The translations under genes and the position numbers were made by a program. From contig JALHYA010000008.1 in the NCBI GenBank assembly GCA_022868165.1, forward strand, positions 1 to 38,443: DNA of 38,443 nt. Direction: 5' to 3'. Positions 5,852-31,816 of the stretch are shown here, piece by piece (within the stretch, counting starts at the first letter, position 1; each line of letters starts with the position of its first letter). Under the pieces are notes generated by a model that worked only from the letters and a program-made list of their open reading frames with translations, did not search any database and was not told the origin of the DNA. Origin of the DNA: Patescibacteria group bacterium (GTDB lineage: Bacteria; Patescibacteriota; Microgenomatia; UBA8517).

Positions 5852-7149
5852 TAACTTAGCTTATTTTGAAAATAACTTAAGAGTTTGTCAACGGCCACTC
5901 TTTCTTGTTTGGCCGTATCCCTGTCACGAACGGTGACCGTACTATCCTCAAGGCTCTGAAAATCGACAGTAACGCACCACGGAGTACCTATCTCATCCTG
6001 GCTGAAATATCTCTTTCCGATGTTGCCTCTGGCATCCCAAGCCGTATAGTATTTAGTATTTAGTATCTGGTATATAGATCTTGCCTTTTTGACCAAATCT
6101 TCCTTATTCGCCAAAAGAGGAAATACGGCAACTTTGTATGGCGCAAGCCGAGGGTTTAATTTTAGATAAACCCGAGGTCCCGGACCTGTCGAAGAATCTT
6201 CGGTGTAAGCATCAATCATAAAGAATAAGGCCGCCCTATCCACTCCTCCGGAGGTTTCGATTACCCACGGAGTATATTCTTCACCCGAATCAGGGTCTTT
6301 ATAACTTAATTTGTGGTTTTTGAGATCGTAGTCTCCTCTGTGGTGAATTCCCTCTAACTCACTCCAACCAAACGGAGCTTTGTACTCAATATCTGTCGCT
6401 TTACGCGCGTAATGGGCCCTTTTGCTCTCTTCATGGTCCCTAAATCGAAGACTTTCTTTGTTCATTCCCAAGGAGATACACCAATTCATTCTTTGCTCTT
6501 TCCAATATTCAAATACTCTCTCTCCTTCTTTTTCGTCCGGCTTGATAAAGTATTCTATTTCCATCTGCTCGAATTCCCTTGAGCGGAAAGTAAAATTGCC
6601 GGGAGTAATCTCATTTCTGAAAGCCTTTCCTATCTGGGCAATTCCAAAGGGGATTTTGATTCGAGTCGAATCTATAACGTTTTTGAAGTTCACAAAAACT
6701 CCCTGTGTAATTTCTCCCCGAAGATAAGCCTTTTCTTTAGGTTCGGTGGTACCCAAATAAACTTCGGTCAAAAGATTGAAAGTTTTTGGCTCCGTCCAGT
6801 CACCTTTGCCTTCGTGTTCCTCTTCGTGCTTTTTAATAGCTTCTTCATCATCCGCACGGACTCTTTTGTGACAAATCTTACATTCAACAAGAGGGTCAGC
6901 GAGGGCTTTCGTATGTCCGGATACTTCCCATACTTTGGGATTCATAATAATTGCCGTGTCCAAGCCGACAATGTCCTCCCGGCCATAAACCATACTCTTC
7001 CACCATTCACGCTTAATGTTATTTTTAAGCTCAACCCCTAATGGACCATAGTCCCAAAAACCACCGAAGCCTCCATAAATTTCACTTCCGGGGAAAACAA
7101 AACCCCGCCTCTTGGCCATGGCGGAGATTTTTTCCATCACATTATCCAT
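5851..7149 (-). CDS. glyS: Glycyl-tRNA synthetase (alpha2 single-chain type)
   Basis: RGFVFPGSEIYGGFGGFWDYGPLGVELKNN, FRNEITPGNFTFRSREFEQMEIEYF, GVDRAALFFMIDAY, RYFSQDEIGTPWCVTVD; zinc-like CKIC insert. Confidence 0.95.
   Translation of the reverse strand: MDNVMEKISAMAKRRGFVFPGSEIYGGFGGFWDYGPLGVELKNNIKREWWKSMVYGREDIVGLDTAIIMNPKVWEVSGHTKALADPLVECKICHKRVRADDEEAIKKHEEEHEGKGDWTEPKTFNLLTEVYLGTTEPKEKAYLRGEITQGVFVNFKNVIDSTRIKIPFGIAQIGKAFRNEITPGNFTFRSREFEQMEIEYFIKPDEKEGERVFEYWKEQRMNWCISLGMNKESLRFRDHEESKRAHYARKATDIEYKAPFGWSELEGIHHRGDYDLKNHKLSYKDPDSGEEYTPWVIETSGGVDRAALFFMIDAYTEDSSTGPGPRVYLKLNPRLAPYKVAVFPLLANKEDLVKKARSIYQILNTKYYTAWDARGNIGKRYFSQDEIGTPWCVTVDFQSLEDSTVTVRDRDTAKQERVAVDKLLSYFQNKLS
6045..6079. 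repeat. Heptanucleotide tandem array inside glyS
   Basis: + strand in strict 7-nt phase: TATAGTA|TTTAGTA|TTTAGTA|TCTGGTA|TATAGAT. Confidence 0.75.
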
Positions 7150-12757: not shown

Positions 12758-14812
12758 TTATATGCGGAGTTTGAGCTCCTTGTCTTCTTTGAGGAAAAAT
12801 TCCTGAGATTGTCTCCCTAAATTGATAGTATAAAGGGGGGCATCCGCTCCGGCCTGTTTCTGAAGGAACAGGTTGTATTCGCCTTTGCTGATTTTAAAAG
12901 GCAAACGATACTTAACGGTTATTTTTGATACTCCCTCGGGACGAAGCTGGAAGTATCCGGCAAAAACGGTTTTGCCCAAATCATCATACGGCGCTGCCTT
13001 TTCCTCAAATCCGTCAACCGACAAAAGCTGTGAGCCTTTGGGCACATAAATTCTGGTCCAATTGGGAAGAACCGAATTGAGCCATCCGTCCTGCTTCATG
13101 GGATTTTTGTAGGTAATGGTCAGGGTTTTTTCAACCGTTCCGTCACCCGACACTTTAATATCCTGCTCTACTTCCTGCGTTACGTAGAGATTTGATTTTC
13201 TTCCCCCCAAATTTGCATCGTTTATATGAAGATAGTCTCCGTTGTAATCGACAATGCGGCCCGCCAAGCCGAAAGCCTCAAGACCGGCCTGTGCTTTGCT
13301 ATCAAATACATAGAAAAGAACATGCTTTTCCGCCAAGGATTTAAAAGCTGCCGCAAAAAGACCGGGAAGCTTTTCTTTCGGCTGTCCCAATGCGTTGGCC
13401 AAAATTGAATTCATCAAGGGACCGATAATGGCTTTGCGATTGCCATAATTTGGCGGGGCAAAAACAATCTTGCCAGGTTCGTTCTCGCTCCAAACAACAG
13501 CTCCTTCTTGGTCGGCAAAGCTTTCAAGTTCATAAATTACCTGGGGACAGTTACACTTCGGTTCTATCTGGGTAGAGAAATTTCCAAATCCACCAACCCC
13601 AATCGGACCTATCGCATCAAGAAGATTTACCAAAAGCTGGGTATCTACGGCTATTACACCGTCAACCTCTGTAATTCCAACTTTTTCGGCCTCTTTGGTA
13701 AATACTTTCATGCTCACGGCAAAGTCGGGCGACCAGTTCATATCTCTAAGCCTTAACTTATCCGACAATACATATGGACCTTTCAGATACTTAATCATCG
13801 GTTCGGGAGCATCCAATGTTGGTAAATAGGAACTGTCCAAGTTATAAATGTCACTGGAAACGGTAGGCGAAAACTTTGCTTTATCTACGGTTACTATCGA
13901 ATATCCCGTCATAAATCCGCCGGTTGGTCTTATTTCCTTATCGTTTTGAAAAAGAACCAGATATGTCCTTTCTTTATCGACCCCCAATAAATATGGTGCC
14001 GCCTCCAAAAGAGGTTTTGCATTGGAAATGAAAGTTGCGGCCGTATCAAAAAGTTCCACACCGTTTCTCACTTGTTCTCTAAGGGGTTTTCCCCGAAACT
14101 TTGCAGGATATCTATCGGGGTTAATTTTGTCTATTTCTGCTTTTGCAAGATTTACTTTTTGGGCTATATCTCCGGCTTTCGGTGTAATTGACGGCAAGCT
14201 CTGAATTACAAAATCCAGCCTTTGCTGTGTAGTTTTTTGCCCGTCCCCTTGTTTATTGTCTCCAAAACCCAAAAGGTCGGCATAAGGCTCTACCGCTGAA
14301 ATTCCAATATCTGCGGCGTCAAAGGAATATCCCAAAGCATTTATTCCGTGTCCGGCATCCGAGACAAATCCACCGGCCCAGGGAATAATTCTCATCCATG
14401 AAATACCGCGATAAGCGCTTTTTAAATTGGTGTATGACTTTTTGGCATTAACAAGCTCAGATTTTATTGCCGGAATTTTCCCTCCTTTGGCAACATCGGA
14501 CAGCCTCCTGCCTTCGGCAGCAAACACCATCGCTTTGGAGTAAAAGTTCCTGGCGGGAAAGAAAATTAAAAGAAACATCAAAAGGAAAAATCCAAAGACT
14601 CCACCTGCAATATAGAGAGTCTTCTTTCCAAAATTTATCTTTGGAAGCTGGAAACTGGAAGCTGGAGGCTGGATATTTGAAGTTGGAAGTTGGCTGTTGG
14701 GAGCTGGCTGTTCGATCTCGGTTGATGCCGCTTGAGGGTCTATTTTAGGAATAAGAACGGATTCTTCAGGCTTGATTTGCGGAATTCCGGATTCTTCGGG
14801 CATATTATCCAT
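12758..14812 (-). CDS. DUF4012-family membrane-anchored protein
   Basis: LVLFQNDKEIRPTGGFMTGYSIV typical of DUF4012; one N-terminal TM after a cytosolic low-complexity linker. Confidence 0.85.
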   Translation of the reverse strand: MDNMPEESGIPQIKPEESVLIPKIDPQAASTEIEQPAPNSQLPTSNIQPPASSFQLPKINFGKKTLYIAGGVFGFFLLMFLLIFFPARNFYSKAMVFAAEGRRLSDVAKGGKIPAIKSELVNAKKSYTNLKSAYRGISWMRIIPWAGGFVSDAGHGINALGYSFDAADIGISAVEPYADLLGFGDNKQGDGQKTTQQRLDFVIQSLPSITPKAGDIAQKVNLAKAEIDKINPDRYPAKFRGKPLREQVRNGVELFDTAATFISNAKPLLEAAPYLLGVDKERTYLVLFQNDKEIRPTGGFMTGYSIVTVDKAKFSPTVSSDIYNLDSSYLPTLDAPEPMIKYLKGPYVLSDKLRLRDMNWSPDFAVSMKVFTKEAEKVGITEVDGVIAVDTQLLVNLLDAIGPIGVGGFGNFSTQIEPKCNCPQVIYELESFADQEGAVVWSENEPGKIVFAPPNYGNRKAIIGPLMNSILANALGQPKEKLPGLFAAAFKSLAEKHVLFYVFDSKAQAGLEAFGLAGRIVDYNGDYLHINDANLGGRKSNLYVTQEVEQDIKVSGDGTVEKTLTITYKNPMKQDGWLNSVLPNWTRIYVPKGSQLLSVDGFEEKAAPYDDLGKTVFAGYFQLRPEGVSKITVKYRLPFKISKGEYNLFLQKQAGADAPLYTINLGRQSQEFFLKEDKELKLRI
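14641..14710. repeat. Ten-unit degenerate heptanucleotide array inside the DUF4012 gene
   Basis: TTGGAAG CTGGAAA CTGGAAG CTGGAGG CTGGATA TTTGAAG TTGGAAG TTGGCTG TTGGGAG CTGGCTG in continuous 7-nt phase; encodes a 7-aa periodic peptide NSQLPTS/NIQPPAS/SFQLPKI. Confidence 0.9.
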
Positions 14813-18796: not shown

Positions 18797-18898
18797 TTTC
18801 AAGGATACCACGAATTTTTATTCGTGGAGGAATTGAACCTGATATATCATCCTTCCCTCAAGGGAAACCGCAAACCTTCGTTTGCGGAGGATGTTATA
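18797..18898 (-). other. Structured intergenic element with multiple hairpins (candidate cis RNA element or repeat)
   Basis: CCACGAAT-TTTT-ATTCGTGG (18808-18827), TGATATATCA (18840-18849), TTCCC-TCAA-GGGAA (18853-18866), CCGCAAAC-CTTC-GTTTGCGG (18868-18887), outer CATCC/GGATG (18848-18852/18889-18893). Confidence 0.7.
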
Positions 18899-29529: not shown

Positions 29530-30963
29530 ATGACACTCACGCTCCCAAAAATAAAATATGCTGTTTTCTTTATTCTTTTTGTTACTTTGATTGTTTTTAC
29601 CCGCTTTTATAATCTCGACAAAACAGCAAGGTTTCTTTGGGATGAATCAAGCGACCTTGTGAGAATGCATCAGATATATGTGGAAAAGAAATTAACCCTA
29701 ATTGGTCCAATCTCAGAGGACGGAAATAAAGTATTCAGTTCCCTCACATACTATATGTTTATGCCTTTCGCCATACTCGGGCATTTCGATCCAGTCAGTA
29801 CCGCGTACGGTTCGGCTTTTTGGGGTATTTTGACAATATGTTTACTTTCTTACTTAACTTACAAAGTTAACACCAAAATGTTGTTTCTTGCCCTACCAAT
29901 TTTTATTTTTTGGTATCCACTTGTGGAAACCGGAAGATGGGCATGGAATCCTAATCTAATTCCTCTTTGGGTAACGTTGGCTTTAATTTTCTATTCGAGA
30001 AAAGGTTTGAATTCGAAGTTCCTTTCGGGACTTTTTATGGGACTCTCTATCCACCAGCATTATTTGGCCATTTTTGCTAGCGCCGGACTTGCACTGGTTA
30101 TTTTCGTTGAAGCTTTAAAGGAAAAAAATCTCAAGAAATTTTTCGTATTTATTCTTGGAATATTCATAACCTTACTGCCATTTGTTATTTTCGATTTAAC
30201 TCACCCTCCGGGACTTTTCCTTTCCAGAATTCTCTATTTCAACTATCTGGAAGGTACGGCAACCAAAACTACTTATCTTTCGAACTTTTTTTCGGTAATA
30301 AGTGGCTCTTTTCAGTACTTTACACAGTCGGTATTTCTTAAAATCATGCTATTTTTATCTATCTCATTGTTAGTACTAATAGATATTAAAAATCGTTCAA
30401 AGGCCCTTCCTTTTGTCGCTATTTTCTTTATGCAGATTCTTGGTCTCTCGTTGGTTAAGGGCTTTTCCAACCACTATATATTAGCCGGCATTCCTTTTTT
30501 TATTGTTTACTTAATTTATCCAAGGAAAAATGCCAGCAAAATATTATCCTTTATTTGTCTTGGAATAATTTTAATTTCATCGATTTTTAGCTTTCCTGAA
30601 CAAATAAAAAAGATTACCTGGGAGAGCGACATCGCATCTACTCGCTATATAACAAATATCATCCAGAAGACAATTCAAAAAAATGACCTTAAAAATGCAA
30701 ATCTTGCGGTTTTAGCCAGCGACGATCCAAATACCTACGGAAGAAGATACCGAGATTTGCTTTTGCTGCGAGGCTTAACTTTAAAAACTAAGGGGGAGTA
30801 CGACATATCCGACGCGCTATTTGTTATCTCCACCTCATCTTTAGATGCAGTACGAAAAGACAATGCCTATGAAATTGACCGTTTCCGCTCCGGACCCTTA
30901 GTTAACTCTTGGGAAGTTCCCGATTCCAATTGGAGAATCTTTTTATTCTCGAGGTCTATTTAA
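29530..30963 (+). CDS. GT-C-type membrane glycosyltransferase-like protein (only plus-strand gene in the cluster)
   Basis: 477 aa multi-TM; FLWDESSDLVRMHQIY, GRWAWNPNLIPLW, GLSIHQHYLAIF, LLPFVIFDLTHPPG; divergent from 28058-29491. Confidence 0.8.
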   Translation: MTLTLPKIKYAVFFILFVTLIVFTRFYNLDKTARFLWDESSDLVRMHQIYVEKKLTLIGPISEDGNKVFSSLTYYMFMPFAILGHFDPVSTAYGSAFWGILTICLLSYLTYKVNTKMLFLALPIFIFWYPLVETGRWAWNPNLIPLWVTLALIFYSRKGLNSKFLSGLFMGLSIHQHYLAIFASAGLALVIFVEALKEKNLKKFFVFILGIFITLLPFVIFDLTHPPGLFLSRILYFNYLEGTATKTTYLSNFFSVISGSFQYFTQSVFLKIMLFLSISLLVLIDIKNRSKALPFVAIFFMQILGLSLVKGFSNHYILAGIPFFIVYLIYPRKNASKILSFICLGIILISSIFSFPEQIKKITWESDIASTRYITNIIQKTIQKNDLKNANLAVLASDDPNTYGRRYRDLLLLRGLTLKTKGEYDISDALFVISTSSLDAVRKDNAYEIDRFRSGPLVNSWEVPDSNWRIFLFSRSI

Positions 30964-31816
30964 CAAGTTTTCCTAGAAATAGACGCTCCAATATTCCCAC
31001 AAAAATCCCAAAGTCGTAAACAATTTTGAAGACCAAGAAAGCGGGGTTTTGTGAAATAAGCGATCTGACTAAACCAACCGCCAGCGACATCGGCAAAGAG
31101 GCTCTGACCAGAGCAATAATATCTCCTACTGCTCCCAATTTATATGGTCTTTTCCCTATCCACTTTGCTTGAGGAAAAACTTCTTCTAAAGTACCCGGGT
31201 TTTCGTGGTAAAAAATTGCTCCATCCGCCGCCAATGCCCCATAGCCCAGTTTCTGACTGAGTGTCCAGTCATCCATATATCCCAGTTTGGGATCAAAACC
31301 CCCTACCCTATCAAATTCCTTCTTGAGAATTGCCCTAAAAACAAGTTGGGTGTCGGGGTAGCTTCTGGGGTGGCGTCTTTTTTCTTCCCAACCCTGATTA
31401 ATGTTCCAGCATCTCGCCCACACATTTTCCCAGTTGGAAACATATTCATATTTCGAGAAGGTGCCATTGGCTTTTCCGGCTATGATTGGTTTTATTAAAT
31501 TTCTTAAAAAGTTTTTGTCAAAAGTCATGTCCGCATCAACAAATACCAAGATTTCGCCGATTGAATGTTTTGCCCCCAAATTTCTCGCCATTCCAGGGCC
31601 TCTATGTTTCTGCTCCAACAGTTGGAAATTGGAAACGAGTAACCCGCTTCGCGGTGGAAATTGGAAATTCCGCAAGACCTGTTTGGTCTTGTCGAACGAT
31701 CCATCATCAACGACGATTATTTCGAAATCCTCGAGCGTTTGTCCCAGGAGAGACTTCAAGCAATTCGCTATGACTTTCTCCTCGTTATATGTTGGAATAA
31801 TTACCGATGCTTTCAT
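30956..31816 (-). CDS. Glycosyltransferase family 2
   Basis: ASVIIPTYNEEKVIANCLKSLLGQT, VVDDGSFDKTKQVL, EQKHRGPGMARNLGAKHSIGEILVFVDADMTF. Confidence 0.93.
   Translation of the reverse strand: MKASVIIPTYNEEKVIANCLKSLLGQTLEDFEIIVVDDGSFDKTKQVLRNFQFPPRSGLLVSNFQLLEQKHRGPGMARNLGAKHSIGEILVFVDADMTFDKNFLRNLIKPIIAGKANGTFSKYEYVSNWENVWARCWNINQGWEEKRRHPRSYPDTQLVFRAILKKEFDRVGGFDPKLGYMDDWTLSQKLGYGALAADGAIFYHENPGTLEEVFPQAKWIGKRPYKLGAVGDIIALVRASLPMSLAVGLVRSLISQNPAFLVFKIVYDFGIFVGILERLFLGKLVK
31623..31667. repeat. 13-bp direct repeats flanking a 19-bp hairpin core, inside a GT2 gene
   Basis: TGGAAATTGGAAA at 31623-31635 and 31655-31667; core CGAGTAACCCGCTTCGCGG (31636-31654) contains CCGC-TTC-GCGG. Confidence 0.85.

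Follow-up and report, generated by a model that had tools for sequence, protein, structure and literature searches.

Two separable layers were found in a GT2 glycosyltransferase gene of a member of the Patescibacteria: a tandem array of 7-bp units and an 18-bp hairpin, CCGCGAAGCGGGTTACTC, which lies seamlessly in the centre of this array. We account for both layers by heptad arrays presumably born from slippage, and by a discrete, dispersed 18-bp element restricted to one bacterial family and inserted without target duplication, and we put the probability of this reading as a whole at about 0.72. The gene is located in a stretch of 38,443 nucleotides (hereafter the window) from an 821-kb genome (G000), which was compared with other genomes of its family, of its class and of a larger genome collection.

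The GT2 locus

The host gene (30956..31816, minus strand, 286 aa) encodes a protein with a profile match to PF00535 (E=1.9e-32), and its orthologue is conserved across most of the family, where 33 of 50 genomes gave a match. On the plus strand, positions 31622-31669 read TTGGAAATTGGAAAC-GAGTAACCCGCTTCGCGG-TGGAAATTGGAAATT, and on the coding (minus) strand AATTTCCAATTTCCA-CCGCGAAGCGGGTTACTC-GTTTCCAATTTCCAA, with the hairpin CCGC-GAA-GCGG. An initial annotation of this DNA had reported 13-bp repeats with an offset of 32 bp around a CCGC-TTC-GCGG core, which matches the sequence exactly (TGGAAATTGGAAA at 31623-31635 and 31655-31667, flanking CGAGTAACCCGCTTCGCGG at 31636-31654), and had placed the encoded insert in a GT2 protein between DDGS and EQKHRGPG, with which both the profile match and the position of the peptide (NFQFPPRSGLLVSNFQLLEQKH, between DDGS and QKHRGPG) agree. 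Its proposal that repeat, hairpin and repeat together form the inserted unit had to be given up: the discrete unit is 18 bp long (31637..31654, minus strand; stem CCGC/GCGG, triloop GAA, 7-nt tail GTTACTC), and the flanks are the halves of one four-unit heptad array, AATTTCC AATTTCC A upstream in the coding sense (31655..31669, minus strand) and GTTTCC AATTTCC AA downstream (31622..31636, minus strand).

Both halves were delimited by the sequence and an excision scan, and the hairpin by the same scan and by six codons in excess of the modal orthologue. The scan was applied to the GT2 gene and to a spermidine-synthase-like gene of G038, with lengths of 8-31 nt and offsets of -9 to +9, and was scored by the restoration of period 7 at the join. 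Removal of 18 nt at offset 0 ranked top in GT2 (19/21 lag-7 matches, tied with offset +1), where it turned the layout (AATTTCC)2-A^GTTTCC-AATTTCC into the array AATTTCC-AATTTCC-AGTTTCC-AATTTCC; it also ranked top, and uniquely so, in the G038 gene (18/21), where AAATCCG-AAATCCT-AAATCCG-AAATCCT was restored. The insertion point follows nucleotide 15 in both, which is the middle of the four-unit array. Perfect direct repeats surround the core at these two loci, 13 bp long in GT2 and 14 bp in G038, and no target-site duplication is needed for either, because the phase of one split heptad array yields both.

A search of the genome for repeat and core, which the initial annotation had proposed, was productive. 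TTTCCAATTTCCA occurs four times in the 821 kb and is missing from the reversed control, a recurrence that exceeds chance, and two further copies of the core besides that in GT2 were detected in G000 (at most 1 mismatch to the consensus; control 0), as well as copies in other genera.

Distribution and fold of the 18-bp element

Among the 50 genomes of the family, searched with the consensus CCRCGAAGYGGGTTAYTCG at up to 2 mismatches and with the reversed sequence as control, eight copies from four genera were recovered (three each in G000 and G005, one each in G023 and G038; control 0), with the consensus CCRCGNAGYGGGTTAYTC (CCRC-GNA-GYGG-GTTAYTC). A class-wide scan of 374 genomes, a draw from which G023 was absent, yielded seven copies in three genomes of the family, one match outside it and two control matches. 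From these counts the element is therefore, as far as searched, restricted to the family and patchy within it.

The stem of the unit spans 4 bp and shows compensatory changes (CCGC/GCGG versus CCAC/GTGG), and its GNA triloop is represented by GAA, GTA and GGA, each closed by C-G; a second G000 copy with matching stem changes, CCACGAAGTGGGTTATTCG, was located at C5:16098 in the core search of its own genome. Predicted folds of copies with a stem range from -1.7 to -3.2 kcal/mol and are weakly better than those of shuffles (z about -1.4 to -2.0), and in the copy of G038 the stem is disrupted (CCAC/GGGG) and no stable fold is predicted. The copies lie in different genes, in both orientations and in at least three reading frames, with PRSGLL, TTKWVI, TTKGVI and NNPLRG as encoded peptides, and at least five of the eight are intragenic. 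Two of them, the GT2 copy of G000 and the spermidine-synthase-like copy of G038, are embedded in tandem heptamers; the flanks of the other six are free of obvious heptads. Each of the four genomes holds one to three copies. In its behaviour the hairpin ranks with the tiniest dispersed DNA elements on record.

When the genome collection was scanned for exact matches to the core, 15 stretches were returned, two of which are, by their identical flanks, those of G023 (a Woesebacteria groundwater MAG, JACOZU010000005.1) and G005 (the Microgenomates MAG BS150m-G53, JADHUT010000004.1). Since these two MAGs come from different projects, a shared artefact is disfavoured. Apart from those in two Clostridiales MAGs, the remaining stretches look like chance matches, of which about 29 were expected by a rough estimate from collection size, and none of the five matches to the core in viral contigs was convincing. 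These two MAGs (L105, L107, L112, L113) carry a full 25-bp palindrome, GAATAACCCGCGAAGCGGGTTATTC, whose 3' part is the 18-mer; this may reflect kinship with the element or coincidence. In G023 (L068), a second tandem unit, CATT-TCTG-AATG-GGTTATTCG, with a different stem and the same tail, lies immediately downstream of the core and is possibly a diverged or nested copy.

The conserved tail GGGTTATTC was also considered as the mark of a larger family and discarded, the 9-mer being common in the sampled sequence without hairpins. GNA hairpins are only modestly enriched across the sample. No known RNA family matched the element, the lone match being below threshold and meaningless. Other hairpin-bearing repeats of G000 were recorded as well: an element of about 90 bp with the hairpins CCGCAAACTTTAGTTTGCGG and CCACGAATAAAAATTCGTGG is dispersed over three places (window about 18800-18893, L081:6821-6915 and L083:9661-9765), that in the window being intergenic and upstream of a GT2 gene, and short hairpin-like sequences are repeated as GCTCAGCTCGGAGCAAGCAAAGCTTGCGGAG and CTTCGACTTCGCTCA (L087:6784 and 8287; L087:9291 and 12913).

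Precise inserts and empty sites

Comparison with empty-site orthologues covered five of the eight copies, and all five are exact inserts of six codons, in the genes for GT2, a PMT-like protein, FemAB, ribosomal protein L4 and a spermidine-synthase-like methyltransferase. The other three copies (L006, L068, L071) are located at the C-terminus of RecG in L071, upstream of a CutA-like gene in L068, and at C5:16098. The GT2 segment from DDGS to QKHxG is variable in length within the family (22-35 aa), and the distance from DDGS to H amounts to 35 aa in G000 versus a modal 29 aa among orthologues. The in-frame insertion of a micro-element proposed by the initial annotation is thus supported, and the empty sites that it had suggested looking for are present in relatives. 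The closest relative in the GT2 gene tree, G036 (support 99/93), has a loop of 27 aa without heptads. In G005, FemAB reads DNKK-KNNPLRG-KELF, and 12 orthologues are without the six residues; ribosomal protein L4 (rplD) of the same genome reads MKT-NNPLRG-KLYT versus MKAKIYT and similar sequences. The PMT-like protein of G000 has GLKNS-TTKWVI-LYFALS versus SLKNS-KYLVVS in G003, with varying loop lengths in other orthologues, and the methyltransferase of G038 exceeds those of G037, from the same genus, and of G011 by six codons. The FemAB, rplD and PMT-like inserts are net gains of 18 bp with no long duplication.

Selection at the peptide level, e.g., for NNPLRG as a motif, was examined and excluded: because frames and strands differ among the copies, conservation does not reside in the peptide. 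The loop that bears the element in G038 holds other extra segments in the spermidine-synthase-like orthologues of G019, G017 and G047 (L165, L163, L173), and at least two of these are hairpin-like, AGCTTGCCATCAGATGGTAAGCT in G017 and a segment containing ACAC-GAA-GTGT in G019.

Heptad arrays in the family

Period-7 arrays are a specific feature of this family of Patescibacteria. They were counted in 428 kb, made up of the window together with seven stretches of G000 and thirteen of ten relatives. Of the arrays reaching 18/21 matches or more, 19 had period 7 and eight period 14, and none of the remaining periods between 4 and 15 was represented more than once; some stretches had been picked around known genes, which biases array density and leaves the contrast between periods unaffected. 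Markov-resampled controls, one copy per sequence, contained 0-1 arrays. The units are diverse (AATTTCG, AGTACAR, GTATTTA, TCAAATC, AAAGGTA), many of the arrays read consist of four units, and 18 of the 19 period-7 arrays overlap open frames of 150 codons or more, about as dense coding predicts. Within the window, a coding array of the GTATTTA type lies in a glycyl-tRNA-synthetase-like gene (6045..6075, no strand assigned). The initial annotation had also claimed the heptad TTGGAAR for an array in a DUF4012 gene; a related heptad array is indeed present in the N-terminal linker of a DUF4012-type protein (14642..14673, minus strand), without a hairpin and with a different heptad, CTGGAAR on the plus strand.

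Heptad arrays recur at the GT2 loop of relatives without any hairpin, as (AATTTTC)n in G003, (AATTTAC)n in G020, (AAATTCG)4 in G044 and G016 and AAATCCG units in G002; the arrays of G002 and G003 differ, although both genomes are of the same genus. The array types are scattered over the gene tree, in which many inner branches are too weak to fix how often they arose independently. At the GT2 loop 6/29 orthologues reach at least 12/14 matches at lag 7, and residues 248-282 form a second hot spot, outside which the rest of the gene shows none; at the spermidine-synthase loop 5/30 orthologues do so at lag 7, one at lag 8 and none at other lags. At the same GT2 site, (AATTTTC)2 AAATTTC AATTTTC of G003 (L059) stands against (AATTTAC)2 AAATTTC AATTTAC of G020 (L056), with an identical T-to-A change in units 1, 2 and 4 and not in unit 3, which looks like concerted change or the independent origin of an equal layout.

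Alternative explanations

Ordinary indel noise in a variable loop, with hairpin and repeats side by side by coincidence, would suit the 22-35 aa range of this loop within the family, but it is refuted by the dispersed core copies with their zero control matches, and the exact gain of 18 bp in five genes and the specificity for period 7 also speak against it; we regard it as extremely improbable. The perfect direct repeats around the core, 13 bp in GT2 and 14 bp in G038, could suggest a transposon-like insertion of a repeat-hairpin-repeat with a 13-bp target-site duplication, yet they are phases of one array, from which removal of 18 nt leaves four units and nothing duplicated. Target-site duplication by a transposon or MITE is contradicted by the restored array together with a net gain of exactly 18 bp, as also seen in FemAB, rplD and the PMT-like gene, and the explanation, largely refuted by net length, retains very little probability.

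The element is short, palindromic and dispersed, as would be a palindrome of the REP/REPIN kind, mobilised by a RAYT (Y1 transposase) and occasionally landing in genes, and REPs inside ORFs are known from other bacteria (PMC3733652). Such an origin is nevertheless quite improbable, as no PF01797 match was obtained in G000, the one carrier searched, with control genomes positive, the consensus is devoid of a GTAG/CGTC tag, and one to three mostly intragenic copies were found instead of hundreds. Low copy number and the want of a mobiliser would also fit a one-off templated micro-insertion during repair, in which template switching brought in an 18-nt piece from elsewhere and no true element exists, and two other G000 loci with a like 18-mer are possible donors. 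However, chance switching would not give the same ends and the same length at five coding sites, spread over three genera, nor compensatory stem changes, which makes this explanation unlikely.

Proposed mechanism

Under the preferred reading of slippage-born heptad arrays and a discrete inserted element, 7-bp arrays would arise repeatedly, also in genes, and their likeliest source would be replication slippage in steps of 7 nt; three extra heptads make 21 nt and keep the frame, which perhaps favours four-unit arrays in genes. They would persist where the protein tolerates a change in length, as in the GT2 loop between DDGS and QKHxG. The 18-bp unit would enter the centre of such an array without target duplication, and because it is 18 bp long and its sequence is open in 5/6 frames, it adds six codons and the protein stays readable. 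That it is copied within genomes is suggested by dispersal and empty sites and not by a burst, since no genome is known to have more than three copies. Copying may pass through a single-stranded hairpin (DNA or RNA), which a putative enzyme would join at a nick or gap; a slipped heptad array might be one source of these, and joining of this kind without target duplication would yield a clean gain of 18 bp. C-GNA-G is a stable DNA mini-hairpin series, and because the loop varies only as GNA closed by C-G, a single-stranded DNA intermediate, if unproven, would be attractive. No mobilising gene was found for the element, and Y1 transposase is absent from G000 according to the PF01797 profile search.

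It is further conceivable, and put forward here with considerable doubt, that the 18-nt C-GNA-G mini-hairpin with its 7-nt tail is an independently spreading unit in Patescibacteria of the Microgenomates type, which inserts seamlessly at gaps such as those of slipping heptamer arrays and is tolerated in genes by way of exactly six codons. If true, few mobile elements described so far would be as small. Because sister genera, and conserved genes like rplD, offer clean empty sites, comparative genomics can directly test the rule of insertion (18 bp into the array centre, no target duplication). The case also shows how reduced genomes can gain protein segments in frame and, in the GT2 loop, how 7-bp repeats have reshaped one stretch of a protein again and again.

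Comparison with known systems

Rickettsia palindromic elements (RPE) measure about 100-150 bp. The present element resembles them in being palindromic and in-frame within functional ORFs, and differs in its 18 bp, its one 4-bp stem and in that no RAYT was found in G000. Palindromic repeats inserted within functional genes have been described (PMC3733652). REP/RAYT systems, RPE and target-duplicating transposons each fail in defining features. Heptamers are the most abundant class of longer SSRs, for which slippage was proposed (Mrazek et al., 2007, in the part reported in PMC4679880), and heptanucleotide repeats occur in Calothrix (PMC4692102). The period-7 arrays here are likewise in excess over other periods and form the dominant long class; they differ by diverse units within one family, by the position of 18/19 sampled arrays in long open frames, and by the same GT2 loop being struck by different units in different genera. 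The loops GAA, GTA and GGA closed by C-G recall the d(C-GNA-G) mini-hairpins (GCGAAGC family), a resemblance of structure only.

The small dispersed repeats (SDRs) of cyanobacteria have units of about 21-27 nt and are reportedly hairpins with compensatory changes, often inside tandem heptamers, in one cyanobacterial subgroup; to our knowledge, dispersed elements of such small size inside heptamer arrays have been described for one cyanobacterial group only. The element reported here is also very short and is dispersed over sites that are not orthologous and that are empty in relatives, with precise insertion, a hairpin backed by compensatory changes and 2/8 copies in heptamers. It differs by 18 bp versus 21-27, by belonging to another phylum, by few copies and by lying mostly in protein genes with the frame kept. 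SDRs are known from Nostoc and its relatives (Elhai et al., 2008, Genome Res 18:1484; cited in PMC3116915, PMC4390886 and PMC2884548), SDR5 inserts precisely between nucleotides 3 and 4 of HIP1 (PMC4390886), and repeats of some 20 bp might be mobile (PMC2884548). Because of its shorter unit and different phylum the element was not filed as an SDR, and the exact scan of the genome collection gave no cyanobacterial record with the core. By its features, and not by sequence comparison, it nonetheless appears to work like an SDR, which would make the cyanobacterial SDRs its closest known counterpart and the streamlined Patescibacteria an independent case of SDR-like elements nested in heptamer arrays.
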